DNA of 64,000 nt, taken from assembly GCF_900108065.1 (NCBI RefSeq), contig NZ_FNVQ01000007.1:1-64000 (forward strand), given 5' to 3'. Below, one piece after another: positions 410-17,882 of this stretch. The translations under genes and the position numbers were made by a program. Position 1 is the first letter of the stretch. Each line of letters begins with the position of its first letter. Below the pieces are notes generated by a model that was not told the origin of the DNA, did no database searches, and worked only from the letters and a program-made list of their open reading frames with translations. This DNA comes from Marinobacterium lutimaris (GTDB taxonomy: Bacteria; Pseudomonadota; Gammaproteobacteria; Pseudomonadales; Balneatricaceae).

Positions 410-1561
410 TTACTCAAGCCGACGGCTCAGCAGTATCCCCCGATCAACTGCGTTGATGTCAGTTCTGCCGCAGAATGCCATGGAAAGATCGAGTTCGTTT
501 CGGATGATTTCCAGAGCTTGGGTAACACCTTTTTCACCCATCGCGCCGAGCCCGTAAAGCATTGCGCGGCCGATATAGGTACCTTGAGCACCCAGTGCGG
601 TGGCTTTGAGTACGTCCTGGCCGGAGCGGATACCGCCATCAAGGTGTACCTCTACATCGTTTCCGACAGCAGCGACAATGGCCGGCAGGGCCGAGATCGA
701 GGAGGGCGCGCCGTCAAGTTGGCGACCGCCATGGTTAGAAACAACAATTGCGTCAGCGCCTGCTTGGACCGCGAGACGAGCGTCTTCCGCATCCATTATC
801 CCCTTGACGATCAATTTGCCGCCCCAGCGCTGTTTGATCCATTCCACGTCTGACCAGGACAGGGTGGGGTCAAACTGCTCTTCGGTCCACTCAACCAAAG
901 AGGCGATGTTATCCACACCTTTGGCGTGACCGAGAATATTGCCAAATTGACGATGCTTGGTACCCAGCATCTTCAGGCACCAGTGCGGCTTGGAGGCGAT
1001 ATTGAGGATGTTTGTCAGAGTCGGCTTGGGCGGCACGGAAAGACCGTTCTTCTTATCCTTGTGCCGTTGGCCGAACACCTGCAGATCCATGGTGACCACC
1101 AGAGCAGAACATTGAGCCTGACGGGCACGCTCGATCAGATCCGCGGTAAAACCTCTGTCTCTGGTGACATAAACCTGAAACCAGAAGGGGTGGTATCCGG
1201 TGGCTGAGGCCACCGCCTCAATAGAGCAGATGCTCATGGTGGAGAGGGTGAAAGGGATACCGAACGCTTTTGCGGCTCGTGCCGCCAGTATTTCTCCATC
1301 GGCATGCTGCATACCGGTCAGCCCCGTGGGCGCTATCGCCACGGGCATGGCCACTGGCTGGCCCAGCATGGTTGTGGCGGTGCTGCGGTGAGTGATATCG
1401 CAGGCGACGCGTTGACGGAATTTGATCTGCTGAAAATCAGCTTCATTGGCTCTGTAGGTGGATTCTGTCCAGGAGCCGCCATCGACGTAATCGTAGAAAA
1501 TGCGAGGTACACGTTTGCGTGCCAGGCGGTGCAGGTCTTCAATGCAGGTGATTTCGGACAT
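410..1561 (-). CDS. lldD: FMN-dependent L-2-hydroxyacid dehydrogenase, L-lactate dehydrogenase-like
   Basis: This 383-residue protein has the length of LldD and the glycolate oxidase family. It should oxidise an L-2-hydroxy acid, most simply L-lactate to pyruvate, and feed electrons to the respiratory chain. Visible family marks are FYDYVDGGSWTESTYR near the N-terminus, FQVYVTRDRG in the FMN-binding barrel, LIVKGI with the catalytic-side lysine, and SNHGGRQLDGAPSS, which carries the catalytic His and the substrate-binding Arg. Substrate choice between lactate, glycolate and mandelate cannot be read from the sequence. It lies downstream of a flavin monooxygenase gene on the same strand, separated by a hairpin with a T-run. 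Confidence 0.85.
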   Translation of the reverse strand: MSEITCIEDLHRLARKRVPRIFYDYVDGGSWTESTYRANEADFQQIKFRQRVACDITHRSTATTMLGQPVAMPVAIAPTGLTGMQHADGEILAARAAKAFGIPFTLSTMSICSIEAVASATGYHPFWFQVYVTRDRGFTADLIERARQAQCSALVVTMDLQVFGQRHKDKKNGLSVPPKPTLTNILNIASKPHWCLKMLGTKHRQFGNILGHAKGVDNIASLVEWTEEQFDPTLSWSDVEWIKQRWGGKLIVKGIMDAEDARLAVQAGADAIVVSNHGGRQLDGAPSSISALPAIVAAVGNDVEVHLDGGIRSGQDVLKATALGAQGTYIGRAMLYGLGAMGEKGVTQALEIIRNELDLSMAFCGRTDINAVDRGILLSRRLE

Positions 1562-3282: not shown

Positions 3283-4434
3283 TTAATGTGAACTCAGTGT
3301 CTGTATTAGCCGAGCAAGCATGGCGTCACAGGCATCCAGTTGTTCAACGCTGACGAACTCGTCGGGTTTATGGCCCTGATCCATGCTGCCTGGTCCGCAG
3401 ATCACTGTAGGAATGCCGATCGCGTCGAACAGGCCACCCTCGGTACCGAAGGCGACGGTGGAGAACTCCTCTGATCCGCAGATTTTTGCTACCAGCCTCG
3501 CAGCCTCGCTGTTGGCATCGGTGACCAGTCCGGGATAGGCCGAAAGTTCCGCAAAGCTGATGCTGCTTTCCGCATCGACGGTGTGCATCTTCGGCAGCAC
3601 CTGCAGCTCGGCATATTGCTCCAGCTGCTTGGCAACCTGCCAGGGATCCTGGGCGGGGAGGGCGCGAATTTCGAAGTCGAAGCGGCAGTCCGCAGGCACG
3701 ATATTCAGTGCCTTGCCACCGTTGATAACCCCGGTCTGAACCGTTGTGAACGGCGGGTCGAAACGGGCATCGCACAGTTCAGGGGCGCGCAGCTCCATGC
3801 CCAGGCGGCCAAGCTCTCCGATCAGCTCAGCGGCGTGCTCGATCGCGTTAACCCCTTGAGGGGCATAGGCGGAGTGGCAGGCGGCGCCGTGTACATCGCA
3901 GCGCATGGCCAGTTTGCCCTTGTGACCCAGTACCGGTTTGAGCTCGGTGGGTTCGCCGATAATGCAGACCAGTGGCTTATGGGGACGCTTTTCAAGTTCG
4001 GACAGCATGGAACGTACGCCCAGACAGCCCACTTCTTCATCATAGGAGAGGGCGATATGCACAGGCTTGTTCAGCGGTGCCTTGAGCAGGGCGGGAACGG
4101 CGGCGAGCACACAGGCGATGTAAGCCTTCATGTCGGCGGTGCCGCGACCATAGAGCCGCCCCTCTTTTTCACTCAACGAGAAGGGGGCAACGGTCCAGTT
4201 CTGGCCATCCACTGGAACCACATCGGTATGTCCGGAGAGCACGATACCGGGTCGGTCATCCGGGCCTATCGTGGCGAGCAGATTGGCCTTGCTGCGCTCA
4301 TCGTTGAAGATTAACTGGCACGACACATCGAGCTTGGCCAGGTAGTCGCAGACGAACTCAATCAGCTGCAGATTCGATTCGCGGCTGGTGGTGTCGAACG
4401 CGATCAGGGCCGAGAGGAGTTCTTTGCTGTTCAT
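3283..4434 (-). CDS. argE: M20 peptidase family deacylase, acetylornithine deacetylase-like
   Basis: This 383-residue cytoplasmic metallo-hydrolase removes an acyl group from an N-acyl amino acid. It has the M20 signatures: SGHTDVVPVDGQNW with the first metal ligand His and Asp, GRGTADMKAY with the bridging Asp, YDEEVGCLG with the catalytic Glu pair, GEPTELKPVLGHKG, and GPGSMDQGHKPDEFV with the C-terminal metal His. It matches ArgE in length and motifs. Because it sits at the end of an ABC-transporter operon behind a DUF1028 gene, 13 bp away, a catabolic role on an imported N-acylated compound is more likely than arginine biosynthesis. That role is inferred. Confidence 0.82.
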   Translation of the reverse strand: MNSKELLSALIAFDTTSRESNLQLIEFVCDYLAKLDVSCQLIFNDERSKANLLATIGPDDRPGIVLSGHTDVVPVDGQNWTVAPFSLSEKEGRLYGRGTADMKAYIACVLAAVPALLKAPLNKPVHIALSYDEEVGCLGVRSMLSELEKRPHKPLVCIIGEPTELKPVLGHKGKLAMRCDVHGAACHSAYAPQGVNAIEHAAELIGELGRLGMELRAPELCDARFDPPFTTVQTGVINGGKALNIVPADCRFDFEIRALPAQDPWQVAKQLEQYAELQVLPKMHTVDAESSISFAELSAYPGLVTDANSEAARLVAKICGSEEFSTVAFGTEGGLFDAIGIPTVICGPGSMDQGHKPDEFVSVEQLDACDAMLARLIQTLSSH

Positions 4435-4446
4435 CGATTTGTCCCT

Positions 4447-5121
4447 CTACTCATCACCCGGAACGCCATAGCTTGGCGCTGAGGTGGGATCCAGTGCCCG
4501 GGTGATGTAGTCCTGCATCTGCGGCTTATAGTCTTCCCAGAGTTTGGCCAGCACTGCGATTGGATCTTCATCTGCCCAGTCAACGCGCAGATCGACTACT
4601 TGCCAGCTCACGCTGTCCACAATCTTCAGCGCAGCGGAGTGAACCGGGCCTGCCTCACCGCCAGCCGCCACCGCCGCCTGCATGGCGGCGATCAGGCGAT
4701 CGCCTAGAGATCCTTTCGTGTTTTCAAAGGTGTCGACCAGCGTAGCGATAACTGCCTGATCGGCGAGCATATTGCCGGCGCCGACACACTGGATTCCTGT
4801 CACGGCGTTGTGGCATCCGAGGGTTTCGCTGCCGCTGAAGTGGGCCGCATTCCCCTGATTGTCGAGTGCGGTTACCTGGCGGTAGGCGCTGAAGCTATCG
4901 TTGCCAAGTGCCTTTTCAAGCGCCGCTTCCACCTCCAGGCCCCGCTCCATAGCGTTGAGTGTCTCCTGACCTAGAGCAGGCAGGGTGATGTTCTGCGTTG
5001 ATACGGCACCGACACCAGCCCGCAGCCAGGGGCAGCGTGCGCCCACGGCGATACTGGATGAGCTGATGGCGATACCGATCTGTCCTGTTTCGGCGCAGCG
5101 GCCGACGATAGAAAATGTCAT
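4447..5121 (-). CDS. DUF1028 family protein (putative Ntn-hydrolase-like)
   Basis: The 224-residue protein opens with MTFSIVGRCAETGQIGIA and continues with VGARCPWLRAGVGAVSTQN, the pattern of DUF1028 proteins, which are predicted to have an Ntn-hydrolase-like fold. No reaction is firmly established for the family, though its members often sit near amino acid or peptide catabolic genes. I chose the ATG at 5121 because an AAAGGAAA site lies just upstream; an earlier start at 5175 would add 18 residues outside the family pattern. It lies between the permease genes and the argE-like gene of the same operon, so it probably helps process the imported compound. Confidence 0.75.
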   Translation of the reverse strand: MTFSIVGRCAETGQIGIAISSSSIAVGARCPWLRAGVGAVSTQNITLPALGQETLNAMERGLEVEAALEKALGNDSFSAYRQVTALDNQGNAAHFSGSETLGCHNAVTGIQCVGAGNMLADQAVIATLVDTFENTKGSLGDRLIAAMQAAVAAGGEAGPVHSAALKIVDSVSWQVVDLRVDWADEDPIAVLAKLWEDYKPQMQDYITRALDPTSAPSYGVPGDE

Positions 5122-5209
5122 GACCTGTTTCCTTTGCGGCGCTGCCTGGCTCGTATTAACCAATTCAGGCAGCACCTGCTGTTACATAAATTGCTGCTTT
5201 GAGCCGCTG

Positions 5210-6025
5210 TTAACGGGAGGCGTCTACGTTCAGTACCCGTCCCAGTCCGAGGAACTTGTTTGCGAGGATCAGCAGCGTTGCGGTTACCGCGATATAGATC
5301 ACCGACAGGGCGGCCAGGGTGGGGTCGGCAAACTCACGCACGTAGTTGTACATCGCGACGGGCAGTGTCTGAGTGTTCTGTGTGGTGACAAACAGTGACG
5401 CGGTGAACTCGTTGAACGACAGAATGGCCGCAAACAACCAGCCGCCAAACAGACCCGGGATCATCAACGGCACGGTAATGGTCCAGACCACTCGCAGCGG
5501 CGAGGCGCCAAGGCTTGCGGCTGCCTGTTCGATACGTTGTTCCAGGTTCTGCAGCGATACATAGAGGCTGCGCAGAACAAAGGGTAGCACCAGGACGATG
5601 TGACAGAAGATCACCAGCGGATAGCCACGGCCAATATTGAGCTGGGCGACCAGCATCAAAAGGCCCAGACCGATGGTGAAGTGGGGAATAAACAGTGGCG
5701 ACAGCAGAATGCCCTCGAGCAGCTGCTTGAAGCGGAATTCGTAGCGGTTGATGGCGATGGCCAGGGTGGTGCCGATAACGACGGCGAGGGTTGAGGCCCA
5801 GGCTGTAACGATCAGGCCCGCGTAGAAGCCATCCTTGAAGTCGTCATAGGTCACTGCGCGCTCAAACCAGCGCAGCGACCAGCCCTTCGGCGGAAAGAAA
5901 AGTACCGAGGTGCTGCTGAACGACGAGATGATCACCACGATAGTGGGTAGCAGCACAAACAGCAGAATCAGTGCGACCAGCGTGCGGCCAGCATAGCCAA
6001 GCCATTTATCACGGGTATTGGTCAT
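5210..6025 (-). CDS. ABC transporter permease, PotC-like
   Basis: A 271-residue inner membrane permease of the spermidine/putrescine-type group. It has about six hydrophobic segments, starting with one at residues 12-34, and the cytoplasmic EAA loop EQAAASLGASPLRVVWTITV that docks the ATPase. It is two bases from the PotB-like gene, so the two are translated from one message. No ATPase is encoded in this operon; the likely partner is the ATP-binding gene at 12504-13658. Confidence 0.88.
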   Translation of the reverse strand: MTNTRDKWLGYAGRTLVALILLFVLLPTIVVIISSFSSTSVLFFPPKGWSLRWFERAVTYDDFKDGFYAGLIVTAWASTLAVVIGTTLAIAINRYEFRFKQLLEGILLSPLFIPHFTIGLGLLMLVAQLNIGRGYPLVIFCHIVLVLPFVLRSLYVSLQNLEQRIEQAAASLGASPLRVVWTITVPLMIPGLFGGWLFAAILSFNEFTASLFVTTQNTQTLPVAMYNYVREFADPTLAALSVIYIAVTATLLILANKFLGLGRVLNVDASR

Positions 6026-6026
6026 A

Positions 6027-6881
6027 TCAATGGGCTCCTACTCTTTGCAGGGGTTGAGTCATCCGTTTGAACGCGGATAGCAGCAGGAACGTCAGGATCA
6101 GGCCGGCGATACTCAGTGCCGCAGCGAACGGGAAATTCATTGACGAGAACCCGAGCTGATACACCATCGTGGCGATGGTGCTGACCTTGCCTCCGCCGAT
6201 CAGCTGCGGTGTCGCAAAAGCACTGAACGTCCAGGCGAAAGCCGTGGTGACACTGGCGATGATGCCAGGGATGGACAGTGGCAGTGTTACGGTAAGAAAT
6301 GAGCGGATAGGTCCGGCGCCAAGACTGGTCGCGGCACGGGCGTAAGCCGGGTCAATATGGGAAAGGCCGGTGGCGAGCATCAGCACCATGATCGGCATGG
6401 TGACGTGGACGAGTGCCAGCACTACGCCGGTCTCGGTGAACATCAGTTGCACTGGTTGATCGATCAATCCGATACCGATCAGGGCACTGTTCAGAAAGCC
6501 GCTGTTACCGAGCACGATAATCCAGGAATAGGTGCGTACCACCTCGCCGAGAAACAGCGGCGTGATGGCGATGATCAGAATGGTGGATTTCAACCAGCCG
6601 CTGCGGGTTTTCACCAGCGCATAGGCGAGCGGATAGCTCATCAACAGGCCGAATAGAGCGGTCTTGAAACTCAGAGAAACCGTGTTGAGGAAGGCGTTGA
6701 AATAGACGCTTTTGAACAGATCCTCAAAGTTACTGAGCGTGAAGCCACCGACGTCCAGGGATCCGGGGATGTAGGCGCGCACGCTGTACTGCAGCACTGT
6801 CAGCATCGCGATCGTCAGGCCCAGTGCGGTCAGCGCTGAAGGCAGCACAAACCACGGGACAAAGGCGGGTTTTCGAGTCAT
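6027..6881 (-). CDS. ABC transporter permease, PotB-like
   Basis: A 284-residue inner membrane permease. The first hydrophobic segment is near residues 8-30, more follow after residue 65, and the EAA loop reads YARAATSLGAGPIRSFLTVT. This matches the PotB/HisM-type subunit that pairs with the PotC-like permease next door. The gene follows the binding-protein gene after a strong hairpin and precedes the second permease with one base between. The substrate cannot be assigned; polyamine-type permeases also import opines, amino acids and carboxylates. Confidence 0.88.
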   Translation of the reverse strand: MTRKPAFVPWFVLPSALTALGLTIAMLTVLQYSVRAYIPGSLDVGGFTLSNFEDLFKSVYFNAFLNTVSLSFKTALFGLLMSYPLAYALVKTRSGWLKSTILIIAITPLFLGEVVRTYSWIIVLGNSGFLNSALIGIGLIDQPVQLMFTETGVVLALVHVTMPIMVLMLATGLSHIDPAYARAATSLGAGPIRSFLTVTLPLSIPGIIASVTTAFAWTFSAFATPQLIGGGKVSTIATMVYQLGFSSMNFPFAAALSIAGLILTFLLLSAFKRMTQPLQRVGAH

Positions 6882-6941
6882 AGGGGCTTCCGTTAAAAAG
6901 GCCGTTTAAGCAGGCCACTGGAAAATCGTGTCTTTGAAAGC

Positions 6942-6964
6942 GGTGCGAGGCGTTGCCTCGCACC
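6942..6964 (-). promoter_or_regulatory. mRNA hairpin between binding-protein and permease genes
   Basis: GGTGCGAGGC and GCCTCGCACC form a perfect 10-bp stem with a 3-nt loop just after the binding-protein stop. There is no T-run. Hairpins in this position commonly protect the upstream message and let the binding protein be made in excess over the permeases; that role is inferred. Confidence 0.7.
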
Positions 6965-6974
6965 CAACTGGCAC

Positions 6975-8003
6975 TTAGTTCGCCATGATGTTTTCAGAGA
7001 ACCACTTACGCCATTCGGAGGTTTTTTCTGCGCGCAGTTTCGGATCGGTGTCCAGGGTGGCATCCCACTGCTCAGCTGTTGTCAGCATGCCTGGCAGTTT
7101 GGCGATTTCCGGGTCAACCGTTGCGTTAGTGACAACCGGGCTACCACGGTTGATCTCGGCGATTTTCGCCTGGACTTCCGGAGACAGGGCGATGTCCATG
7201 AATTTGTAGGCAAGGTCAGCATGCTCGGTACCCTTATTGATACCCATCGCATCGATACCCAGAACCGCACCTTCTTTCGGCATCGCCAGCTTGATGTCTA
7301 CGCCTTCCTCCATCATGTGGTAGGCGTTCATGGACAGCAGAACCTGAACGGGAGTCTCACCGGTGGCGATCAGCTGCTGGCTGTTGGCATCGTTGGTGTA
7401 GAACGCCTTGATGTTCGGAATCAGTGACTTGAGCTTGTCCTGCCCCGCTTCCCAGTGTTCGGCGTCAGAGCCTGCCAGTTTGGCGGAAACGGCGATGATG
7501 TGGCTCGGATCCCAGTCCGGCAGAGCCAGGGAGCCTTTCATCTCAGGCTTCCAGAGATCTTCCCAGCTTTCGAAGGTTTCACCTTCAGGTACCAGCTCCG
7601 GGCGGTAGCCGATGGTGTAGACGTAACCCCAGACGCCGATATGGTTCGGGCTGAGTTGTGCCTGGTGCACCAGGTTGCTGGCGTTCGGGATCTTACTCAT
7701 ATCCAGATCTTCGAACAGTCCATCATTGGTGTACAACCAGCCTACGTGGGAAGTGGTGAAGGTCAGGTCAGTTTCCGCTGTACCGGCCAGCTTGGCCTTA
7801 TTCAGGCGATCGATGGTGCCGCCGGTAACGTACTCGACTTCTACGCCGGTCTGCTTGGTGAACTCCTGGCCGATCGCTTTATCGATCAGGTCCTTGAAGC
7901 TGCCGCCCCAGGTGCTGACGATCAGTTTGTCTGCCGCGCTGGCATTCGCTGCGGAAAGCAGGCTGGCACTTAACAGTGTCAAAGCAAGGGTGTTACGTAG
8001 CAT
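6975..8003 (-). CDS. ABC transporter periplasmic substrate-binding protein, PotD/F-like
   Basis: This 342-residue protein is exported: MLRNTLALTLLSASLLSAANASAA is a signal peptide and the mature part begins ADKLIVSTWGGSFKDLI, typical of the polyamine/opine/iron-type binding proteins. The ATG at 8003 is preceded by AGGAG at good spacing, so the longer upstream frame to 8177 is not used. It is the first gene of the operon with two permeases, the DUF1028 gene and the argE-like gene. It is divergent from a LysR gene, which probably regulates it. Confidence 0.88.
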   Translation of the reverse strand: MLRNTLALTLLSASLLSAANASAADKLIVSTWGGSFKDLIDKAIGQEFTKQTGVEVEYVTGGTIDRLNKAKLAGTAETDLTFTTSHVGWLYTNDGLFEDLDMSKIPNASNLVHQAQLSPNHIGVWGYVYTIGYRPELVPEGETFESWEDLWKPEMKGSLALPDWDPSHIIAVSAKLAGSDAEHWEAGQDKLKSLIPNIKAFYTNDANSQQLIATGETPVQVLLSMNAYHMMEEGVDIKLAMPKEGAVLGIDAMGINKGTEHADLAYKFMDIALSPEVQAKIAEINRGSPVVTNATVDPEIAKLPGMLTTAEQWDATLDTDPKLRAEKTSEWRKWFSENIMAN

Positions 8004-8406
8004 ATTGGTACTCCTACTGAGTGGTACAGCGGTTAGGTTATTTGGATGTTGCAATCTGTTTTTGTGCAAACAGTCGATGACCTTTCCAAGGAGCTCCCGC
8101 GGTATAAAGGCGAGACTCTTTGCTACCACGACTGCCCTGTTACGGGGCAAAGATCGTTGTGGCTTGATGTGGATCAATAATGGAATGGTGAGCCGCGTGG
8201 GGTAAAACAGGCTTTACCGTGCTACTGCGTCAGGATTTCTGATCCAAGCCCGTACTGCTGATCTGCCGGGTTTCTGGTACTCATTAATAACTGCATGCGC
8301 AAAGCAACAATGGAAACTCCTTTGCTTGGTGCGTTCTTTGCTTGCTGAGATGCGACAGCTGCTTGCTGATTTACGTCTTTTGCCCGGTTTGTTTCTGGAG
8401 TGCTTT
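8004..8406. promoter_or_regulatory. Divergent control region between ABC operon and LysR gene
   Basis: These 403 bp separate the binding-protein gene (minus) from the LysR gene (plus). No gene is convincing. Around 8126-8161 an imperfect nested inverted repeat is visible (CCACGA with TCGTTGTGG, enclosing GCCC and GGGC). The LysR product would be expected to bind here, by analogy with other divergent LysR pairs; I cannot point to a certain operator. Confidence 0.45.
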
Positions 8407-9381
8407 ATGCTCAGCCGTATTACCCAACGCCAATTAGAATATTTTGTCGCCTCTGGAGAGGCTGGAAGTATCCTCGGGGCTTCTGAACGTATTCATGTCT
8501 CGTCCCCCTCCATTTCCGCAGCCATCACCCATATTGAACAGGAGCTCGGTGTACAGCTGTTCATACGTCACCACGCCCAGGGGATAACGCTGACGGCGAT
8601 CGGCCAGCAGGTGTTGAAAGAAGCCAAAATTATTCTCGACCAGGTCAATAACCTGTACACCATCGCTTCGGAATCGTTGAATACCGTGCGTGGCCCTTTG
8701 CGTGTGGGCTGTCTCAATTCGCTGGCGCCGATGCTGACGCCTGAGCTGGTGTATGGCTTTGGCCGGGCGTTTCCGGGGGTGCGGATCACCCAGACTGAAG
8801 GGGATCACGAAGAGCTGCTGTCAAAGCTGCGCAGCGCCGATATCGATATCGCCCTCACGTACGATCTGGTGAGCAGTGACGATATGGACTTTCAGCCGCT
8901 GGCGCAGCTGCCACCGCATGTGATGGTGGGTGAACACCATCCGCTGGCGACCATGAAGGCGGTGACGATGAATGACCTGGAAACCTATCCGATGGTGCTG
9001 CTGGATATGCCCTGGAGCCGGGAGTACTTTCTCGGGCTTTTCATGCAGGCGGGGGTGACGCCCAATATCGCCATGCAGTCCGGCAATCTGGATGTTGTGC
9101 GCTCGATGGTGGCTAACGGCGCCGGGTACAGCATCGCCAATGTGCGTCCCAAGGCCAATCTTTCCCAGGATGGCAAGCGCTTGATACGTGTACGTCTGGC
9201 GGGAGAGCACCGGGCGATGCGTATCGGTTATATCACGGCAAAAAACACCCATCTGTCTCGTGTCGTCAGTGCGTTTGCCGAGCGTTGCCGCATGTTTGTC
9301 TCTGACCAGTACATTCCGGGAATGACGGCGCCGAGCTTTTTCGACCCGCATACCGTGCGCAGCATCAAGGGCGTGGCTTAA
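8407..9381 (+). CDS. LysR family transcriptional regulator
   Basis: A 324-residue regulator. The N-terminal helix-turn-helix spans about residues 1-60 (RITQRQLEYFVASGEAGSI through SAAITHIEQELGVQLFIRHH), followed by the LysR effector domain starting near TVRGPLRVGCLNSLAP. I chose the ATG at 8407 because GGAG sits at correct spacing and the family begins at this point. It is divergent from the ABC/DUF1028/argE operon and convergent with ghrA, so it most likely controls uptake and breakdown of the unknown substrate. Its stop shares the bases TTAA with the ghrA stop on the other strand. Confidence 0.9.
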   Translation: MLSRITQRQLEYFVASGEAGSILGASERIHVSSPSISAAITHIEQELGVQLFIRHHAQGITLTAIGQQVLKEAKIILDQVNNLYTIASESLNTVRGPLRVGCLNSLAPMLTPELVYGFGRAFPGVRITQTEGDHEELLSKLRSADIDIALTYDLVSSDDMDFQPLAQLPPHVMVGEHHPLATMKAVTMNDLETYPMVLLDMPWSREYFLGLFMQAGVTPNIAMQSGNLDVVRSMVANGAGYSIANVRPKANLSQDGKRLIRVRLAGEHRAMRIGYITAKNTHLSRVVSAFAERCRMFVSDQYIPGMTAPSFFDPHTVRSIKGVA

Positions 9382-10310
9382 TAGCCGCGCCCCGGATCAA
9401 CCTGATGCAATATGCTTTCACCCTGTTCCAGGCGCCGAATGTTATCCGCAATCTGCTGTGCAGCACTGGCGGGGATCGCCACTGAGGCCAGGTGAGGCGT
9501 GATCAGCACATTCTCCATCGCCCAGAGCGGATCTTCTGGCGGCAGGGGTTCACGGTCAAACACATCCAGTGTGGCAGCGCCAATTCGCCCTGAGGCCAGT
9601 GCCGCGGTCAGCGCCTGCTGATCGACGATTGCACCGCGGGAGACATTAATGAAACAGCTCCCCTCAGGCAGCAGCGCCAGGCGTTCGGCGTTTAAAAGTC
9701 CTTGGGTTTGTGGTGTCAGCGGCAGCATCACCACGAGGATATCGCTGCTGGCGATAAACCCATCGAGATTATCCATCCCGTTAACGCAGGTTAGGTTTTC
9801 CAGCTGCTTGGGCGAGCGTGACCAGCCGCGTACATCAAAGCCCTGACGCGCCAGTTCATTGGCGGCATAAGCGCCGAGTTCGCCAAGTCCCAGGACACCG
9901 ACGCGGGTACTTGAGGGGAGGCGGGGATGCAGATAGTGCCAGCGGTGCTCTCGCTGCGCCTTTTCAAAGGCGGGAATATCGCGTGCATAGCGCAGTACGG
10001 CAAAGAGCACGTAGCTGGCCATCATTCGGCCCATGTCGGGGTCGGAGATGCGGGTGATCGGCACCGCAGGCAGATCATCACGGTTCACCAGCGAATCGAC
10101 ACCGGCACCGAGATTGACCAGCAGTTTCAGATTGCGGTAGCTGGCGAAAAAGCCATGCGGTGGTTTCCACGCCAGCACGTAGTGCACGCTCTCCGGGTCT
10201 TCCACCTGCTCTGGCGTGCAGATCCTCACCTCAGGGAGCAGCGGCGCGAGCAGCGCTTTCCAGTCATCGAAGCTATCTACCTTGCTATAAAACACCAGCG
10301 TTGAGGTCAT
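9378..10310 (-). CDS. ghrA: D-2-hydroxyacid dehydrogenase, glyoxylate/hydroxypyruvate reductase A-like
   Basis: The 310-residue protein matches GhrA in length and pattern. It has the NAD(P)-binding motif GVLGLGELGAYAA, the segment INVSRGAIVDQQAL with the catalytic Arg region, FDREPLPPEDPLW with the catalytic Glu, and ITPHLASVA with the catalytic His. It would reduce glyoxylate, hydroxypyruvate or a related 2-keto acid to a D-hydroxy acid. It is the last gene of the operon that begins with RidA and overlaps the aroQ-like gene by 4 bp. The real substrate in this pathway is not known. Confidence 0.83.
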   Translation of the reverse strand: MTSTLVFYSKVDSFDDWKALLAPLLPEVRICTPEQVEDPESVHYVLAWKPPHGFFASYRNLKLLVNLGAGVDSLVNRDDLPAVPITRISDPDMGRMMASYVLFAVLRYARDIPAFEKAQREHRWHYLHPRLPSSTRVGVLGLGELGAYAANELARQGFDVRGWSRSPKQLENLTCVNGMDNLDGFIASSDILVVMLPLTPQTQGLLNAERLALLPEGSCFINVSRGAIVDQQALTAALASGRIGAATLDVFDREPLPPEDPLWAMENVLITPHLASVAIPASAAQQIADNIRRLEQGESILHQVDPGRGY

Positions 10311-10753
10311 GCCGGCTCCTCCAGCAGCTCAGCAACAGCGCTAAGGGCGAGACGATAGCCGCGCGCGCCGAGGCCCGCGATCACCCCGGTTGCCGCCTTG
10401 GAGACATAGGAGTGGTGGCGGAAGCTCTCGCGCTTCCAGACATTGCTCATGTGGGCCTCGATAATGGGGCCGTCAAAGGCGAGCAGGGCATCGAGTATCG
10501 GTATTGAGCTGTAGGTCAGGCCGGCGGCGTTGATGATGATGGCATCGCCGTTTAGGCGGGCTTCCTGAATCCAGTCCACCAGCACGCCTTCGTGGTTGCT
10601 CTGGCGAAACTCAAGATTCAGCCCCAGCTTCGCGGCATGCTGTTGGCAGCCTTCTTCAATGCTGGCGAAGCTCTCGCTGCCGTAGGTGCCGTTTTTGTCC
10701 AGCCCGTAAAGATTGGCATTGGGACCGTTAAGAAAGTAGACGGTGCGACTCAT
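10307..10753 (-). CDS. Type II 3-dehydroquinate dehydratase-like protein with altered active site
   Basis: This 148-residue protein has the flavodoxin-like fold pattern of AroQ: FLNGPNANLYG, a conserved SNHEG stretch, INAAGLTYSS, IEAHMSN and RESFRHHSY, ending GLGARGYRLAL. In M. tuberculosis AroQ numbering, Tyr24, Asn75, His101, Arg108 and Arg112 appear kept. The lid Arg19 is replaced (GLDKNGTYG where the family has GxREPxxYG) and His81 is a Tyr. It may therefore catalyse a different reaction from shikimate-pathway dehydration. It lies between a GST and ghrA in a catabolic-looking operon, overlapping ghrA by 4 bp. Function beyond the fold is uncertain. Confidence 0.75.
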   Translation of the reverse strand: MSRTVYFLNGPNANLYGLDKNGTYGSESFASIEEGCQQHAAKLGLNLEFRQSNHEGVLVDWIQEARLNGDAIIINAAGLTYSSIPILDALLAFDGPIIEAHMSNVWKRESFRHHSYVSKAATGVIAGLGARGYRLALSAVAELLEEPA

Positions 10754-10783
10754 GGCTGCTCCAAAAGAGTGAAAGGTGGAAAA

Positions 10784-11398
10784 TCAGACGAACGGACGGG
10801 TTGCCGCCATGGATGGCTGCTGATCGAACTTGGCAAACCAGAGCGCGGCTGCCGGGCAATCGCTGCGCCAGTCCAGTTCCGGAAAACGAAAGTCCAGGTA
10901 CCCCAGTGCACAGCCGATCGTGATCAGGCCGATATCCTCTGGCTCCGTGCTGAACCGAGCCACCTGAGCTTCGATCTCGGCCAGTGCCGCACGGATCTTG
11001 ATCAGCTGCGACTCGCGCCAGGTATGCCACTGTTTATCGGCGGGGCGGGCGACGCTCTCATAGCGGGCCAGCAGCGCCGCATCCAGCATTCCATCACCCA
11101 GCGCCTGACGGGTGAGGCTGGCCCAGCGTTGCGGTGCTGATTCGGGGAAAAGGGTGCCGCCTGCGTAGGTGTTCAGATACTCACAGATCACTCGGCTGTC
11201 GTAGAGTGCAATGCCGTCGGCTGTCTGCATGGCGGGCACTTTCGCCAGCGGATTGAACTCGGCGATCCGTTGGTCTCGCTCGACCGGATGGGCCGCCGAG
11301 TCGAGTTTCTCGATCTGCTCAACCAGGCCCAGTTGGTGGGCCGTCACCATGACTTTGCGCACGTAGGGCGAAGTCGATGCGTAAAACAGCTTAAACAT
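10784..11398 (-). CDS. Glutathione S-transferase family protein
   Basis: A 204-residue protein with the thioredoxin-like N-terminal domain of GSTs (MFKLFYASTSPYVRKVMVTAHQLG, and KVPAMQTADGIALYDSRVICEYLN with the cis-Pro and glutathione-contacting DS) and an all-helical C-terminal domain. The SPYVRK start resembles bacterial YibF-like or beta-type GSTs. It could conjugate glutathione to, or isomerise, an intermediate of the pathway. It sits between a quinone oxidoreductase-like gene and the aroQ-like gene, about 30 bp from the latter. Confidence 0.85.
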   Translation of the reverse strand: MFKLFYASTSPYVRKVMVTAHQLGLVEQIEKLDSAAHPVERDQRIAEFNPLAKVPAMQTADGIALYDSRVICEYLNTYAGGTLFPESAPQRWASLTRQALGDGMLDAALLARYESVARPADKQWHTWRESQLIKIRAALAEIEAQVARFSTEPEDIGLITIGCALGYLDFRFPELDWRSDCPAAALWFAKFDQQPSMAATRPFV

Positions 11399-11420
11399 GG
11401 TGGTTCCTTATTAGCGCCAC

Positions 11421-12425
11421 TCAGGCGGTCTTAATGCTTAGCAGGACTTTGCCCACGTTTTCGTTGGCCTCAAGGATACGGTGGGCTTCGCTGGCCTGTG
11501 CCAACGGCAGTTGCTTATGCACCAGTGGGCGCACGGCGCCTGATGCGATCCAGGGCAGCAGGTGTTCACGAATGGCCCCGGCCAGTCGCGCTTTTTCTGG
11601 GTGGCTTTTAGGACGCAGCGTCGAAGAGGTGAGGCTGAGGCCTTTCTGCATCACCAACAGCAGATCGACTTCGACCTTGGCACCGAGCAAAAAGGAGAGA
11701 CTGACGTGGCGGGCGCCAGCGGCCATGCAGCAGAGGTTACGCGCGACGTAGGCCCCGCCCACGTTATCCAGCACCACATCGACGCCACGGCCCTCGGTGC
11801 ATTCCGCTACAACCTCAACAAAATCCTCGCTGTAGCGGTCGACCGCACGCCAGACGCCCAGCTTATTTAACGCGGCGATCTTTTCGCTGCCACCTGCAGT
11901 CGCAATGACTCGCGCTCCGGCGGCCTGGGCGCACTGAATGGCAAAGCTGCCAACGCCACTGGCGGCCCCGTGAATCAATAGGGTATCGCCCTTGTTCAGA
12001 CGGCCCAGCTCAAACAGGTTGTGCCAGACGGTGAAGGCCGCCTCAGGAACGCCGGCGGCCAGTTGCAGCGAGAGTGTCTCTGGCACTGGCAGGCAGTGTT
12101 CCGCCTTGGCGGTGCAGTATTCGGCGTAACCGCCGCCGCTGAGCAGTGCCATCACTTTATCGCCAATAGCCAAAGTGCTGACTTCAGCCCCTACGGCGAC
12201 GACTGTGCCTGATGCCTCAAGGCCGAGTATGTCGGTGACGCCCGCTGGCGCTGGCATACCGCTGCGCTGCATCAGGTCTGGACGGTTAACGCCGGCAGCT
12301 GCAACCTCAATCAGTACCTCATCGCTTTGCAGCAAGGGCAGGGCACGTTCGACCTGCGTAAGTACCTCAGGGCCGCCCGGCTCGGTTGCGATGATGGCGT
12401 TCATCATTTCGGGGAGTCGGCTCAT
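11421..12425 (-). CDS. NAD(P)H-dependent quinone oxidoreductase, PIG3/QOR family of zinc-independent MDR
   Basis: A 334-residue member of the medium-chain dehydrogenase/reductase group without zinc ligands. It has a GroES-like first half (AAGVNRPDLMQRSGMPAPAG, LGLEASGTVV), a Rossmann motif HGAASGVGSFAIQ for NADPH, and the DVVLDNVGG segment of the quinone reductase group. The pattern is closest to PIG3-like reductases that reduce enones or quinones. It follows the ABC ATPase gene after a hairpin and precedes the GST gene by about 20 bp. Confidence 0.85.
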   Translation of the reverse strand: MSRLPEMMNAIIATEPGGPEVLTQVERALPLLQSDEVLIEVAAAGVNRPDLMQRSGMPAPAGVTDILGLEASGTVVAVGAEVSTLAIGDKVMALLSGGGYAEYCTAKAEHCLPVPETLSLQLAAGVPEAAFTVWHNLFELGRLNKGDTLLIHGAASGVGSFAIQCAQAAGARVIATAGGSEKIAALNKLGVWRAVDRYSEDFVEVVAECTEGRGVDVVLDNVGGAYVARNLCCMAAGARHVSLSFLLGAKVEVDLLLVMQKGLSLTSSTLRPKSHPEKARLAGAIREHLLPWIASGAVRPLVHKQLPLAQASEAHRILEANENVGKVLLSIKTA

Positions 12426-12456
12426 GGTTTTGTTTACTCCATATGGGTGTGGATCC

Positions 12457-12475
12457 GCCTGCCAGCACGGCAGGC
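12457..12475 (-). promoter_or_regulatory. Intercistronic hairpin after the ABC ATPase gene
   Basis: GCCTGCC and GGCAGGC form a perfect 7-bp stem with a 5-nt loop between the ATPase and quinone oxidoreductase genes. It has no T-run, so it is more likely a message-stabilising element or partial terminator than a full stop. Confidence 0.5.
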
Positions 12476-12503
12476 CGTCCGTGTGACGCGTGGCTCAACC
12501 GGG

Positions 12504-13658
12504 TCAGTTTGGCTGCGCCGCGGCAAAGGCGCAGACGCCCTCATCGTCAAAACTGAGCCCCGCCACTGATCCAACCGGCCAGCGACTAAGGGCGTTGAGT
12601 CCGGACTGGCGCACAAACAGCCGCGTATCGCCAAGCGCCGGCACGTCCAGATAAATATCCACGTGATCCCCCTGGAATACATGGGTCACGACGGTGGCGC
12701 TGAGCAGTGATTGAGGGCCCAGCGTATCCAACTGAATGTTTTCCGGGCGTACGTAGATATCCAGGCGGTCGCCGACATCGGCCTTAACCCGTTCGCTTGG
12801 CAGTCGGAACTGGCTGCTGCTCAGCTCCAGCGTGGCTTGGTCGCTGCGGCTCGAATAACGACCGGGGAGGATATTGACGTCGCCAACAAAGCTGGCGACG
12901 AACGGATCTTCCGGCTTTCGATAGATGGAATCAGGGTCGCCAATCTGGCGAATATGCCCGGCAGACATCACCACGACACGGTCGCTCATGCTCAGCGCTT
13001 CGCTCTGATCATGGGTGACGAAGACGGTGGTTACGCCCAGTTTGCGCTGGATCTCCTTGAGCTCGATCTGCATCGACATACGCAGGTTTTTATCCAGGGC
13101 GGAGAACGGCTCATCAAGCAGCAGCACTTTGGGCCGAATCACCAGAGCACGAGCCAGCGCCACGCGTTGCTGCTGGCCACCGGAAAGCTCGCTGGGCTTG
13201 CGCCCGCCGTAGCTCTCGAGCTTGACCAGCGCGAGAGCCTGGGCGACGCGCTCTTCGATCTCCGCTTTGGGCACGCCGCGCATGCGCAGGCCATAGCCCA
13301 CGTTCTTCGCCACGGTCATATGGGGGAACAGCGCATAGTTCTGGAAGACGATGCCTATCTCGCGCTGGTAAGGCGGGGTATCGGTGACCAGTTGACCGTC
13401 GATAAAAATCTCACCGGTATCGGCCTCGGCAAAGCCGGCAATCAGGTTGAGCAGTGTGGTCTTGCCGCAACCGGAAGGGCCCAGCAGGGTGATGAATTCA
13501 CCCTCCTGTATCTTTAAAGACACCTTTTGCAGCGCGATAGAATCGCCAAAGCGTTTCAGTACACCGTCCAGTTGAACCGCGGGTGTGGTTCTACGTGCCG
13601 ATGAGTGAGCGTCAACAGTGGTGTCAGAGGTAAATGCAGTTGCCTGTGCAGAGGTCAT
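12504..13658 (-). CDS. ABC transporter ATP-binding protein, PotA-like
   Basis: The 384-residue ATPase has Walker A ([18 protein letters not shown]), the signature [15 protein letters not shown], Walker B ([13 protein letters not shown]) and the H-loop [14 protein letters not shown]-terminal TOBE/MOP-like domain of about 120 residues follows, as in PotA. It carries a roughly 25-residue N-terminal tail before the domain. It lies in the RidA operon without permeases; the nearest permeases lacking an ATPase are at 5210-6881, which I infer are its partners. ATG at 13658 has GGAG upstream. Confidence 0.9.
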
Positions 13659-13687
13659 GGGCGCTCCAGTAAAAGAGAAAAAGGGCG

Positions 13688-14113
13688 TCAGGCCGGCGTG
13701 TAGTCATCCGGTACAACAGCGATTACGTCGATCTCCATCAGCCACTCGGGTTGACCGAGGCCCGCGACCACAAGGCCGGTAGAGATCGGGAAGACCCCCT
13801 TGAGCCACTTTCCGGTCTCGCGGTAAACCGCCTCGCGATAGCGCGGATCGGTGATGTAAGTGGTGGTCTTGACGATATGGGAAAGCTCAGAGCCTGCTTC
13901 TTCCAGCAGTTGCTTAACGTTTTTCATCGCCTGCTCAGTCTGAGCTTGCGGATCACCCAGACCCACCAGGTTACCTTCGAAGTCGGTGCCGATCTGACCG
14001 CGCACATAGATGGTGTTACCGGCCCGTACCGCCTGGCAGAGATCGTTATCCAGCGACTGGTTTGGGTAGGTGTCCTTGGTGTTGAACATGCGAATACGGG
14101 TATGGGTGGGCAT
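13688..14113 (-). CDS. RidA/YjgF/Rid family protein
   Basis: A 141-residue protein of the Rid family, which hydrolyses reactive enamine/imine intermediates formed by PLP enzymes or amine oxidation. The pattern includes AVRAGNTIYVRGQIGTD, the PQAQTEQAMKNVKQLLEEAG segment and TGLVVAGLGQPEWLMEIDVIAV. The Arg of the RidA active site, normally in a CIFV or similar motif near the C-terminus, is not in the standard place, so it may be a Rid2-7 type subgroup member. It starts the operon with the ABC ATPase. The start could also be the ATG at 14089. Confidence 0.8.
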   Translation of the reverse strand: MPTHTRIRMFNTKDTYPNQSLDNDLCQAVRAGNTIYVRGQIGTDFEGNLVGLGDPQAQTEQAMKNVKQLLEEAGSELSHIVKTTTYITDPRYREAVYRETGKWLKGVFPISTGLVVAGLGQPEWLMEIDVIAVVPDDYTPA

Positions 14114-14383: not shown

Positions 14384-15415
14384 TTACTCGGTCGGGCAGC
14401 TGTTGCTCAGCTCCAGCGCACGGGCGTAAACCTGGCGGCCTGGCAGGCCTTTCTCTTCGAGGGAAGCCAGGTAGCTCTCGGTGGCTTCATCCAGCACCGG
14501 TTTCCAGGCCGGGTTTTCGGCGCCGCCTTCAACGGTGTAGATCTCGTCGCCAGCGTCCAGCGCCTGTTGGCGGCCGGTATCGTCGGAGTTGTCGTAGTTA
14601 ACACCGGCGATCTTGGCCCAGGCCTGGCCTGAGGCGTGGTCAATCACCTGTTTCAGATCATCCGGCAGGCCGTTGTAGACATCTTTGTTCATGGTGGCGA
14701 TGAACGACAGGGAGTACAGACCGCCCACTTCGGTGTGGTAAGGGGTCAGTTCGTTCAGGCGGAAGGAAAGCTGACCTTCCCAGGGGAACATGATGCCGTT
14801 AATCACGCCACGCTGTGCGGATTGGTAGGTTTCCGGAGCCGGCATGCCGACCGGCTGTGCACCCAGACGGGAGAGCATGTCGCCCACCACGGTGGTCGGG
14901 CGGCGGATGCGCATCCCTTCGAGATCGGCCGGTACCTTAACCAGCTTGTCGGTGGAGTGCAGGTGGCCCTGGCCGTGGGTGAAAAAGAACAGCGGGTGGG
15001 TATCTTCATACTCGGAGGCGATCAGGCCTTCATCGTACAGGCTCTGCAGTACGCAGGAGCCCTGCACGGCGGTCTTGACCACGCCCGGCAGTTCGACAAC
15101 CTGAGTCAGAGGGAAGCGGTTGGCGGAGTAACCCTGGACGGTAGCGGTCACGTCCATGATGCGGTTTTTAACCGAGTCGTACTGGGCAGCCGGCTTGGCC
15201 AGGGTGCCTGACGGGTAGATCTCTACCTCGATGCGACCGTCGGACTCTTTCTGCACCTGGTCTGCCCAGGGCTGGAAGATGTTCTTGTGGGTGCCGGCCA
15301 CGGCGGGCCAGATATGGCCGAAGCGCAGGGTGACGTCCGCGGCCTGAGCCTGGACAGCGCCCAGGGTCAGAGTAGCGGTGGTGGCGACGGCGGCAGCAAG
15401 CTGTGTCAGTTTCAT
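14384..15415 (-). CDS. TRAP transporter periplasmic binding protein, DctP family (solitary)
   Basis: A 343-residue secreted protein with signal peptide MKLTQLAAAVATTATLTLGAVQAQA and a mature start ADVTLRFGHIWP. The DctP mark is the GMRIRRPTTVVG segment, whose second Arg normally pairs with the substrate carboxylate. No DctQ or DctM lies beside it; the TRAP permeases at 17968-19817 have their own DctP. Located right after vanB on the same strand, it probably binds an aromatic acid such as vanillate, but this is inferred from position. Confidence 0.88.
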   Translation of the reverse strand: MKLTQLAAAVATTATLTLGAVQAQAADVTLRFGHIWPAVAGTHKNIFQPWADQVQKESDGRIEVEIYPSGTLAKPAAQYDSVKNRIMDVTATVQGYSANRFPLTQVVELPGVVKTAVQGSCVLQSLYDEGLIASEYEDTHPLFFFTHGQGHLHSTDKLVKVPADLEGMRIRRPTTVVGDMLSRLGAQPVGMPAPETYQSAQRGVINGIMFPWEGQLSFRLNELTPYHTEVGGLYSLSFIATMNKDVYNGLPDDLKQVIDHASGQAWAKIAGVNYDNSDDTGRQQALDAGDEIYTVEGGAENPAWKPVLDEATESYLASLEEKGLPGRQVYARALELSNSCPTE

Positions 15416-15547
15416 TCGTTGATCCTGTTTATTGTTATAGAGCCCTGCTCAAAAGGTGTGAGCGATCGGGCGCGTTGTTGTTATGGGGTTGTAATTGTGG
15501 GTTGTCGTTATCGGTTGAAGTCACTTTAAGCATGGGGGCTTAAGGCT

Positions 15548-15565
15548 GCATGAACAGCTTCATGC
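15548..15565 (-). promoter_or_regulatory. Intercistronic hairpin between vanB and dctP
   Basis: GCATGAA and TTCATGC form a 7-bp stem with a 4-nt loop about 23 bp after the vanB stop. There is no T-run. It may stabilise the vanAB message or partly end it before the dctP gene. Confidence 0.45.
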
Positions 15566-15587
15566 TTTCCTTAGATATCCAATGCTC

Positions 15588-16541
15588 TCAAATATCTAAA
15601 ACAAGTCGTTTGCTTTTGGCGCGCGAGCAGCAAGGTGCGAACTCCTCGTTGCTGGCATGTTCCGCGGGTGTCATGAACACATCGCGGTGATCCGGTTCCC
15701 CTTCGAGAAGGCGCACGGCACAGGTGCCGCAGACGCCCTCTTCGCAGGAGAAGGGTACATCCATATCCTTCTCCAGCAGCACTTCGAGCACCGATTTGTC
15801 GGCCGGTATCTCGATCACTTCGCCACTGCTGGCGAGCTGTACCTCAAAGGCGCCGTCGTCATCGTGATTGATCGCCTCGGCGGCGAAGTATTCGCGATGC
15901 AGCTGGGTATCGCCCCAGCCGGCAGCCTGGGCAGTCTCCAATACGTGGTCCATGAACGGATTGGGGCCACAAACGTACAGGTGAGTGCCCGGTTTAGGGG
16001 AGGCCAGCAGTGCGGCAGCATCCATGCGAGTGGATGGCTCGTCGCGACTGTGGTGGAAGCTCACCCGGTCAGCAAAATCCGATTGCTCAATGCGTGTGCG
16101 GAATGCGGTCTGCTCGGCGTTGCGGGTGCAATAATGCATCTCGAACGAGGCGCCCTGATGGGCCAGGCGCTCCGCCATGCAGAGAATCGGCGTGACGCCG
16201 ATACCGCCGGCGATCAGCAGATGATGCTCGGCGCTGTGCTCCAGCGGGAAAAGGTTACGCGGCTCGCTGATCTGCAGCGTATCGCCCGCATTGACCTGGT
16301 CATGCACGGTGCTTGAACCACCGCGGGATTCGGGATCGCGCAGTACGCCGATCTCATAGCGGTGGCTCTCGCCGGGGTGATTGCAGAGGGAATACTGGCG
16401 CACCAGCCCGCCCGGCAGGTGCAGGTCGATATGTGCACCTGCGCTGAAGCTCGGCAGCGCGGAACCGTCCGGCCGGGCCAGTTCAAGCAGGCAGATATCG
16501 TCGGTTTCGTAGCGTTTACTGACGACCTTTACATCTATCAC
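15588..16541 (-). CDS. vanB: Vanillate O-demethylase reductase subunit
   Basis: The 317-residue protein matches VanB along its length. It has an FMN/flavin-binding segment RQYSLCNHP, an NAD-binding region GGIGVTPILCMAERL and LYVCGPNPFMDHVL, and a C-terminal plant-type 2Fe-2S domain with SCEEGVCGTC plus a last Cys in APCCSRA. It transfers electrons from NADH to the VanA oxygenase. The start is a GTG at 16541 with AGGAGA upstream. It lies 70 bp after vanA in the same direction. Confidence 0.93.
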   Translation of the reverse strand: MIDVKVVSKRYETDDICLLELARPDGSALPSFSAGAHIDLHLPGGLVRQYSLCNHPGESHRYEIGVLRDPESRGGSSTVHDQVNAGDTLQISEPRNLFPLEHSAEHHLLIAGGIGVTPILCMAERLAHQGASFEMHYCTRNAEQTAFRTRIEQSDFADRVSFHHSRDEPSTRMDAAALLASPKPGTHLYVCGPNPFMDHVLETAQAAGWGDTQLHREYFAAEAINHDDDGAFEVQLASSGEVIEIPADKSVLEVLLEKDMDVPFSCEEGVCGTCAVRLLEGEPDHRDVFMTPAEHASNEEFAPCCSRAKSKRLVLDI

Positions 16542-16611
16542 AGCACTGTCTCCTGTCCCGACATGCGGGCGGGCTTTTTTCTAGTTATATAGCCGATCCT
16601 GGCAGCCAGCG

Positions 16612-17673
16612 TCAGGCGCTGACGCTGACGCTGGTGATCTTGCTGTCCTGCTGCTCTTTTTCCAGCAGTTTGTCGATGATTCGGCGCGCCTGAACGCCTC
16701 CAGAATCGATGTCGAGTTTGAGCAGATTGCGCTCGGGGAACTCGAGAATGTTGCGCTGCTGGCGCTCCAGCATCTCCAGGTCTTCGGAGAAGATCTGGCC
16801 CTGGCCTTGGCGGATCTGGTCGGTAAGCGCACTGTCTTCCGGCTTGAAGTTGCGCGCCATACCCCAGAAGTACCAGTGGCTGGTCTCGGTTTCCGGGGTG
16901 ATAAAGTCGACCACGATGCTGCTGGCCTTGTGCTGGGCCTCGGCCTCGTAACCGCCGTTGCCGGCGATGGCGACACCCACCTCGATCATCACATGGCTGG
17001 GTGGGTTGAAGCGGCAGATCTGCCAGCGGTCCACATCGGCGTCAGCATCCAAGCCGTTGGCTGTAAGCGCAGCCTGCCAGAAGGGCGGAGCCTTGATGTT
17101 TTCCATATGGCGTACTGTCTGCACCTCACCATCGACCAGCTTGGTTTTGACCGGTGCCTCGTCGATCTCTTTCTGGCCGATGCTGGTGGAGTGGACGTAG
17201 GTCTCATGGGTCAGATCCATGAGGTTATCGATCATCAACTTGTAGTCGCAGTTGATGTGGTAGAGGCCGCCACCGTAGGCCCATTCGGGATCTTCGGCCC
17301 AGTGCAGCACGGGGATATCGTCGGTGTTGGCCAGGCTTGCATCGCCGGTCCAGACCCAGACAAAGCCGTAGCGCTCTTCAACGGGATAGCTTTTGACGCA
17401 GGGGAACCCGCCTACGCGCTGTTTCGGCATGGAGAGTGTCTTGCCGTCCGCGCCCATCTTCAGGCCGTGGTAGCCGCAGACCAGTCCGCCATCTTCAACA
17501 TACCCCAGAGAGAGAGGTGCGCCCCGGTGGGGGCAGAAATCCTGAACGGCGCCGACCTTGCCGTCGGTGTTGCGGAAAAATGCGATACGTTCGCCACAGA
17601 TCTGTCGGCCGAGCGGTTTCTCGGCGAATTCATCGGGTGTACAGGCCACGTACCAGCAGTTCTTGGTGAACAT
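16612..17673 (-). CDS. vanA: Vanillate O-demethylase oxygenase subunit
   Basis: The 353-residue Rieske oxygenase converts vanillate to protocatechuate and formaldehyde. The Rieske 2Fe-2S ligands are C47 and H49 (CPHRGAP) and C66 and H69 (CGYHG). The mononuclear iron site is seen in DNLMDLTHETYVH with H156 and H161. Segments such as NPEWAYGGGLYHI-like WAYGGGLYHINCDY and WQICRF follow known VanA proteins closely. ATG at 17673 has AAGGAG. Two TGGATCCA-centred palindromes upstream resemble VanR operators, so induction by vanillate through a GntR-type VanR encoded elsewhere is likely. Confidence 0.95.
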   Translation of the reverse strand: MFTKNCWYVACTPDEFAEKPLGRQICGERIAFFRNTDGKVGAVQDFCPHRGAPLSLGYVEDGGLVCGYHGLKMGADGKTLSMPKQRVGGFPCVKSYPVEERYGFVWVWTGDASLANTDDIPVLHWAEDPEWAYGGGLYHINCDYKLMIDNLMDLTHETYVHSTSIGQKEIDEAPVKTKLVDGEVQTVRHMENIKAPPFWQAALTANGLDADADVDRWQICRFNPPSHVMIEVGVAIAGNGGYEAEAQHKASSIVVDFITPETETSHWYFWGMARNFKPEDSALTDQIRQGQGQIFSEDLEMLERQQRNILEFPERNLLKLDIDSGGVQARRIIDKLLEKEQQDSKITSVSVSA

Positions 17674-17757
17674 GACAGACTCCTTCGATTGGTGTTTCTT
17701 GTATTTATGTATCCAACTTGAACCTATATTGCCCCATCTACCGAAGAAAAGGCCAGA

Positions 17758-17833: not shown

Positions 17834-17882
17834 GTGGCGCTCTCGGTGGAGTAACGATAGTTCAGAACCGATAAAAAGGCAG

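Follow-up and report, generated by a model that had tools for sequence, protein, structure and literature searches.

The hinFLHG genes of Pseudomonas convert imidazole-4-acetate to aspartate in histamine catabolism and lie in the order F-L-H-G in strain PAO1 (PMC8231116). In a second report, HinF is an FAD monooxygenase (EC 1.14.13.5), HinL an enamine deaminase, HinH an amidase, HinG an amidase (EC 3.5.1.8) and HinI an aspartate ammonia-lyase, with identities between Pseudomonas and Brevibacterium of 60-63% (HinF), 61-65% (HinL), 48-50% (HinH), 40-43% (HinG) and 54-56% (HinI) (PMC6467879). Here we describe a related locus in a 64,000-nucleotide stretch (the window) on contig 19 of the 5.57 Mb, 21-contig genome of Marinobacterium lutimaris. 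This locus combines genes resembling all four of hinFLHG with an ATP-binding cassette (ABC) importer split over two operons and several further enzymes, among them a relative of type II 3-dehydroquinate dehydratase (AroQ). We propose, with a probability of roughly 0.6, that the locus imports and fully degrades an imidazole carboxylate related to imidazole acetate, by way of a hin-type lower half and an upper half specific to this variant.

As required for a hinFLHG-type set, the window locus holds four genes, all on the minus strand. They encode a flavin-dependent monooxygenase (FMO) and proposed ring hydroxylase (1662-2915); a Rid-family, HinL-like protein and proposed deiminase of a formimino intermediate (13688-14113; TIGR00004 match under cut-off); a HinH-like DUF1028 protein and proposed imidazolone ring-opening amidohydrolase (4447-5121; PF06267, 219 bits); and an ArgE-like M20 deacylase, HinG-like and proposed to deformylate N-formyl-aspartate (3283-4434; PRK07522 and TIGR01892 above cut-off). 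The FMO-Rid-DUF1028-ArgE order of related cassettes equals F-L-H-G, and hinFLHG of Pseudomonas putida U and P. aeruginosa (PA5393-PA5390) has the same four functions in the same order. Homologues in Arthrobacter are 61% (FMO), 63% (Rid), 46% (DUF1028) and 53% (aspartase) identical to the query proteins, a divergence much like that between the Pseudomonas and Brevibacterium Hin proteins, and the Arthrobacter M20 protein gave no match to the query ArgE-like protein at the threshold used. The core cassette is most likely of the hinFLHG type, as judged by function and order against hin genes known from descriptions alone. Because Rid, DUF1028, ArgE and FMO match hinFLHG, the locus most likely serves to oxidise and open an imidazole ring. 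The initial annotation had stated that no described pathway has this content; for the core this does not stand, and it holds, within the literature searched, for the AroQ-like module discussed below.

The neighbours of related cassettes include further histamine-type genes. An aspartate ammonia-lyase gene adjoins the core in Arthrobacter, Streptomyces, Aminobacter, genomes G127 and G099, and a second core copy in the M. lutimaris genome. The Arthrobacter core is also accompanied by a primary-amine oxidase and an aldehyde dehydrogenase, and a Pseudomonas core (locus L083) is followed by an aldehyde dehydrogenase, an amino acid permease and a class III aminotransferase. In the second M. lutimaris copy (G000:C18:1096051-1102479; L026:3052-9480), an aldehyde dehydrogenase and the aspartate ammonia-lyase (TIGR00839 above cut-off) are divergent from FMO-Rid-DUF1028. 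This lyase carries an N-terminal extension of ~150 residues, and no ArgE-like gene was found within the 19 kb fetched around the copy. The window locus itself has no aspartate ammonia-lyase gene and no hinC- or hinD-like genes beside it. In a Caballeronia locus (L139), a Rieske protein also lies beside the core cassette.

We assigned the DUF1028 protein to the HinH position by order, conservation and elimination, as a strong inference and not a sequence match. Its likely start is MTFS at 5121, and Met-Thr at this position is invariant in 111 of 111 aligned sequences; loss of the Met would expose this Thr as a putative nucleophile. The predicted structure (pLDDT 90.8) matched 2IMH in a Foldseek search (6.6e-20). 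This entry, the DUF1028 protein SPO2555 of Silicibacter pomeroyi, shares family, fold and ~33% identity with the window protein and has a title without a function. In the list of 50 out of 371 matches, 2IMH is followed by Anbu, 20S proteasome chains, MTH1020/PurO and the asparaginase EcAIII, all of the N-terminal nucleophile (Ntn) type and all weak (E 2e-4 to 7e-3, query TM-scores 0.34-0.47). These matches, of one fold class throughout, weakly suggest an Ntn-type fold, and a predicted N-terminal threonine amidase acting on a cyclic amide would fit the ring-opening step. The family name DUF1028 had no match in the literature searched; with this assignment the family would gain a testable function, as an imidazolone-opening Ntn amidase.

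The Rid, DUF1028 and ArgE-like genes of the window are distributed over two minus-strand operons, each with tight internal spacing, that flank a LysR-type regulator (8407-9381, plus strand, likely start ATG at 8407), which is divergent from the first operon. That operon encodes a PotD-related solute-binding protein (SBP; 6975-8003), a PotB-like permease (6027-6881), a PotC-like permease (5210-6025), DUF1028 and the ArgE-like deacylase, and has no ATPase gene. The second encodes the Rid protein, a PotA-like ABC ATPase (12504-13658; TIGR01187 above cut-off), a PIG3-type NAD(P)H quinone oxidoreductase (QOR; 11421-12425; TIGR02824 above cut-off), a glutathione S-transferase family protein (GST; 10784-11398), the AroQ-like protein (10307-10753; PF01220) and a GhrA-like D-2-hydroxyacid dehydrogenase (9378-10310; PF02826, best model PRK15469 under cut-off), the last two genes sharing 4 bases. 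From 3283 to 14113 all twelve genes are open, and their positions and strands agree with the initial annotation apart from the starts of DUF1028 and LysR, which are corrected here. The boundary drawn there was too narrow: directly downstream lie the FMO gene and, at 410-1561 (minus strand), a gene for an FMN-dependent alpha-hydroxy-acid oxidase of the LldD/lactate dehydrogenase family (NCBIfam PRK11197 above cut-off). Among related loci with an AroQ-like gene, window included, 19 of 25 have an FMO homologue and four have the oxidase, which is an optional member.

Our survey of such loci comprised 113 Rid loci (Rid at least 50% identical, window included), drawn from the best Rid loci, from genomes of the order picked by DUF1028 and from chosen plasmid regions. 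This sample is uneven and includes near copies; 25 of its loci carry the AroQ-like gene (AroQ-type loci) and 88 do not. Among the best 80 of 575 Rid loci, which are close relatives by construction, the Rid protein is 85-92% identical, and homologues at 44% identity or more are present for the FMO in 76, for DUF1028 in 76 and for ArgE in 70. Rid proteins on alphaproteobacterial plasmids are 51-61% identical to that of the window. Within the order, 21 of 293 genomes encode a DUF1028 protein (E <= 1e-10). Plasmid records at E <= 1e-30 number 246 for Rid and 241 for DUF1028 with closely similar genus counts, Klebsiella contributing 105 to each, many of them near copies. The AroQ-like protein has 393 plasmid records at E <= 1e-20, 106 of them from Klebsiella and seven from Escherichia; 134 of the 393 are at least 60% identical. 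In the order, AroQ matches above 70% identity are found in three of 293 genomes (M. lutimaris, G130 and G073), in each case inside this cluster, and the next-best match, at 56%, lies on another contig of the M. lutimaris genome. Across the class, nine of 369 genomes have the FMO (E <= 1e-100) and two have the AroQ-like protein (E <= 1e-50), too few for co-occurrence to be tested at this level.

In seven loci an orthologous LysR gene separates the ATPase block from the SBP-permease block. Besides the window, these are the cluster of genome G130 (L027), three from Pseudomonas genomes (L047, L048 and L110), and one plasmid locus each from Klebsiella (L130) and Pantoea (L131). In both of these plasmids LysR is 78% identical to that of the window and, unlike in the window, DUF1028 and ArgE are placed in the Rid block. 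On Rhizobium and Roseinatronobacter plasmids the ATPase gene directly follows the permease genes. In the M. lutimaris genome, each of the seven other PotB-like permeases detected (E <= 1e-15) is encoded within ~4 kb of a PotA-like ATPase, which leaves the ATPase at 12504-13658 as the sole evident partner for the permeases of this locus. These data support the initial proposal that the two operons jointly encode one complete importer: the operons are conserved together in these relatives, and the question of whether the ATPase pairs with permeases elsewhere in the genome is answered in favour of a single importer. The SBP and permeases are related to those of PotABCD-type polyamine importers, and the ATPase passes TIGR01187; the window proteins differ from these importers in reaching none of the Pot equivalog cut-offs (PotA 402 of 482 bits, PotB 149 of 348, PotC 147 of 326, PotD 85.5 of 582). 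In the Roseinatronobacter locus (L132), the SBP gene is missing from the gene table, and a tblastn match between 13379 and 14987 holds a stop; this gene may be broken or mis-sequenced. The window contains a further pair of PotB-like permease and PotA-like ATPase genes at 31288-34750.

Compared with hinFLHG, the window locus adds its own importer, the AroQ-like protein, QOR, GST, GhrA and the hydroxy-acid oxidase. QOR is found in 22 of the 25 AroQ-type loci and in none of the 88 others, and this arrangement is therefore not due to chance. GST (16 of 25) and GhrA (10 of 25) are likewise absent from all 88, and the ten loci with GhrA are exactly those with a PotD-related SBP; P values computed for these contrasts take no account of relatedness among loci. 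In a tree built by a quick method, for which the tool warned of long branches, the 19 AroQ-linked FMOs form one clade (SH-aLRT 100), sister to and apart from 86 FMOs of loci without AroQ. As for the six AroQ-type loci with no FMO, the stretches of L047, L048 and L110 stop inside the ArgE gene, and L127 ends with its linearised circular record. A two-component HpaB-type monooxygenase with a flavin reductase stands in place of the FMO in an Aminobacter locus (L144), and L037 has at its edge a flavin reductase and a C-terminal HpaB part (71% identical over 182 residues). No description of an AroQ-type cluster was found in the literature searched, and the main text of a Rid-family genomics paper (PMC4433059) does not mention 1028, flavin, monooxygenase, ABC transporter or deacetylase. 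Within this literature, the module of AroQ, QOR, GST and GhrA is an undescribed variant joined to a lower pathway of an already known kind. The GhrA homologue of L130 is absent from the gene table and was found by tblastn; on the E. coli plasmid L127, only the Rid-to-AroQ part of the cluster is visible.

The AroQ-like protein belongs to the type II dehydroquinase family (PF01220, 167.5 bits), with three PRK05395 subfamily models above cut-off and TIGR01088 below it (156.4 against 169.85). Using an alignment to 1D0I and M. tuberculosis numbering, we compared the 25 cluster proteins with nine control AroQ proteins: seven from the order, the second AroQ of M. lutimaris (C18:337969) and one encoded beside shikimate-type genes in Shinella. 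All 25 cluster proteins keep Asn12, Tyr24, Asn75, Asp88, His101, Ser103, Arg108 and Arg112. In all 25, Arg19 is replaced, by Asp in 23 (including that of the window), Gly in one and Glu in one, and His81 is replaced by Tyr; both residues are kept in nine of nine controls, the second M. lutimaris AroQ among them. For AroQ, PMC6011038 assigns binding of the C1 carboxylate to Asn75, Ser103 and main-chain amides, protonation of the C1 hydroxyl to His101 and the grip on the C5 hydroxyl to His81 and Arg112; Arg19, described there as essential, stabilises the tyrosinate and enolate. From the residues kept and lost, the half of the site that grips an alpha-hydroxy-carboxylate would be retained, and the residues that fit the cyclohexane ring and aid a difficult deprotonation altered. 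The window-type proteins thus resemble AroQ in sequence family and in Tyr24, Asp88, His101, Asn75, Ser103 and Arg112, and differ from it in lacking Arg19, which is essential there, and His81. A set of proteins annotated as type II 3-dehydroquinate dehydratase, many of them plasmid-borne, are therefore probably not shikimate enzymes.

We infer each catalytic step, the order of the steps and the substrate as follows. The split importer would take up a compound related to imidazole acetate whose side chain is, or becomes, an alpha-hydroxy acid, and GhrA and the alpha-hydroxy-acid oxidase would interconvert its 2-oxo and 2-hydroxy forms; GhrA (as a proposed 2-oxo-acid reductase), the oxidase and the PhyH protein of other loci are each candidates for introducing or removing the alpha-hydroxyl. 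The FMO would hydroxylate the ring to an imidazolone. By chemical reasoning, the AroQ-like protein could then eliminate water, turning O=C-CH-C(OH)-COOH into O=C-C=C-COOH, an arrangement on which dehydroquinase also acts: an imidazolone with a CH(OH)-COOH side chain would offer the same unit with an expectedly more acidic proton. The product would be an exocyclic alkene, whose double bond GST, a proposed E/Z isomerase, may isomerise and QOR, a proposed enone reductase, may reduce to give imidazolone acetate, the entry into the hin route. There DUF1028 would open the imidazolone ring, the Rid protein would take ammonia off the formimino group, the ArgE-like enzyme would remove formate to leave aspartate, and an aspartase encoded elsewhere would convert aspartate to fumarate. 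The initial annotation had suggested catabolism of an N-acylated or imine-forming compound; imine hydrolysis and deacylation survive as proposed steps (formimino, formyl) of what is most likely an imidazole pathway, in place of a general route for N-acyl compounds or imines.

Imidazole lactate, methylated imidazole acetate and ergothioneine-derived thiols were considered and may each be the substrate, and we make no choice among them. The fuller scheme is tentative, and we hold it to be doubtful as a whole: a new imidazole route, spread on chromosomes and plasmids of Pseudomonadota, in which a recruited dehydroquinase dehydrates an imidazole acetate hydroxylated both on the ring and at the alpha position, ahead of GST isomerisation and enone reduction into the hin pathway. 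The locus points to an imidazole compound, not recognised so far, that would serve soil, marine and enteric bacteria as a nutrient.

Several observations weigh against an imidazole pathway of this form. QOR is absent from three and GST from nine of the 25 AroQ-type loci, and GhrA and the ABC importer are present in just ten. Twelve of the 25 carry a PhyH dioxygenase, a class II aldolase and an amino-acid importer instead, which the scheme leaves unexplained; two of the 88 loci without AroQ also have PhyH and two have the aldolase, L028 having both, so neither gene is explained by an AroQ step. In the fetched loci, the remainder of the genomes not being searched, DUF1028 was not seen in L049, L051 and L067, nor ArgE in these three and L027. 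An aspartate ammonia-lyase gene lies beside one of the 25 AroQ-type loci and five of the 88 others. The equation of HinH with DUF1028 is limited by a hin side known by description, and the ArgE-like protein passes the NCBIfam cut-off for acetylornithine deacetylase and would be so named, so family names alone give no support to the proposed role on formyl-aspartate. Judged from sequence, loss of the essential Arg19 could also mean a dead enzyme. Alpha-hydroxylated imidazole acetate is named nowhere in the literature searched. No common regulator motif was found between the promoters (best 17-mers with 3-4 mismatches, against 3-6 in shuffles).

Since the four core enzymes are those of hinFLHG, and QOR and GST are not universal, this could be an ordinary imidazole-acetate (histamine) locus whose FMO acts like HinF and whose AroQ-like protein, QOR, GST and GhrA detoxify side products or were carried along. 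We consider this unlikely: the AroQ-linked FMOs form a clade of their own, QOR, GST and GhrA are confined to AroQ-type loci, and none of the 25 has a homologue of the aldehyde dehydrogenase or the aminotransferase of L083, which occur in 30 and 22, respectively, of the 88 other loci. The second core copy of M. lutimaris, moreover, has an FMO of the other clade together with an aspartase. We give about as little credence to a different five-membered N-heterocycle, or to imidazole in N-methylated or thiolated form, with the AroQ-like protein a tautomerase or hydratase instead of a dehydratase. The HpaB-type replacement of the FMO in L144, the partial HpaB in L037 and the arylmalonate-decarboxylase-like and PhyH proteins that accompany some loci would suit such a ring. 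In gamma- and betaproteobacterial loci, however, the presence or absence of AroQ makes little difference to the identity between the Rid protein and that of the window (mostly 85-92%), which argues for the same late intermediates, and the AroQ residues conserved are those that handle carboxylate and hydroxyl.

Least probable of all is the initially suggested route, unrelated to imidazoles, for breaking down an N-acylated amino acid, an opine or a polyamine. The M20 family, the PotD-related importer and the ArgE score above the NCBIfam cut-off would agree with it, but the core matches an imidazole pathway with aspartase neighbours, and the importer type differs between loci while the core stays constant. 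The Rut pyrimidine pathway (RutA-RutB-RutC) also works by a flavin oxygenase, an amidohydrolase and a Rid-family deaminase, and RutC is weakly among the profile matches of the window proteins. It differs from the window locus in oxygenase family, hydrolase family and ring, and a Rut-like reading, suggested by cytosine permeases beside some cores, was dropped because aspartase and histamine-type genes appeared beside cores. Homarine catabolism was also considered, and support for it was not found. The FMO was not assigned to the Nit1C/NitH (MSMEG_0569) family, whose NCBIfam cut-off it does not reach; plasmid proteins bearing that name share 35-41% identity with it, whereas identities among the cassette FMOs are mostly 58% or higher.

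Additional genes adjoin these clusters. Beside the Rid operon of the window, at 14384-20833, genes for a tripartite ATP-independent periplasmic (TRAP) transporter (two DctP-type binding proteins, a DctM-like and a DctQ-like protein) surround genes for a Rieske protein and a ferredoxin-type reductase. An arylmalonate-decarboxylase-like protein and a TRAP transporter lie beside two AroQ-type clusters, the former at L037:6725-7531 (Pfam) and L133:7909-8715 (68% identical). Elsewhere in the window, a tRNA cluster (Ser-Asn-Lys-Lys) is located at 50733-51180.

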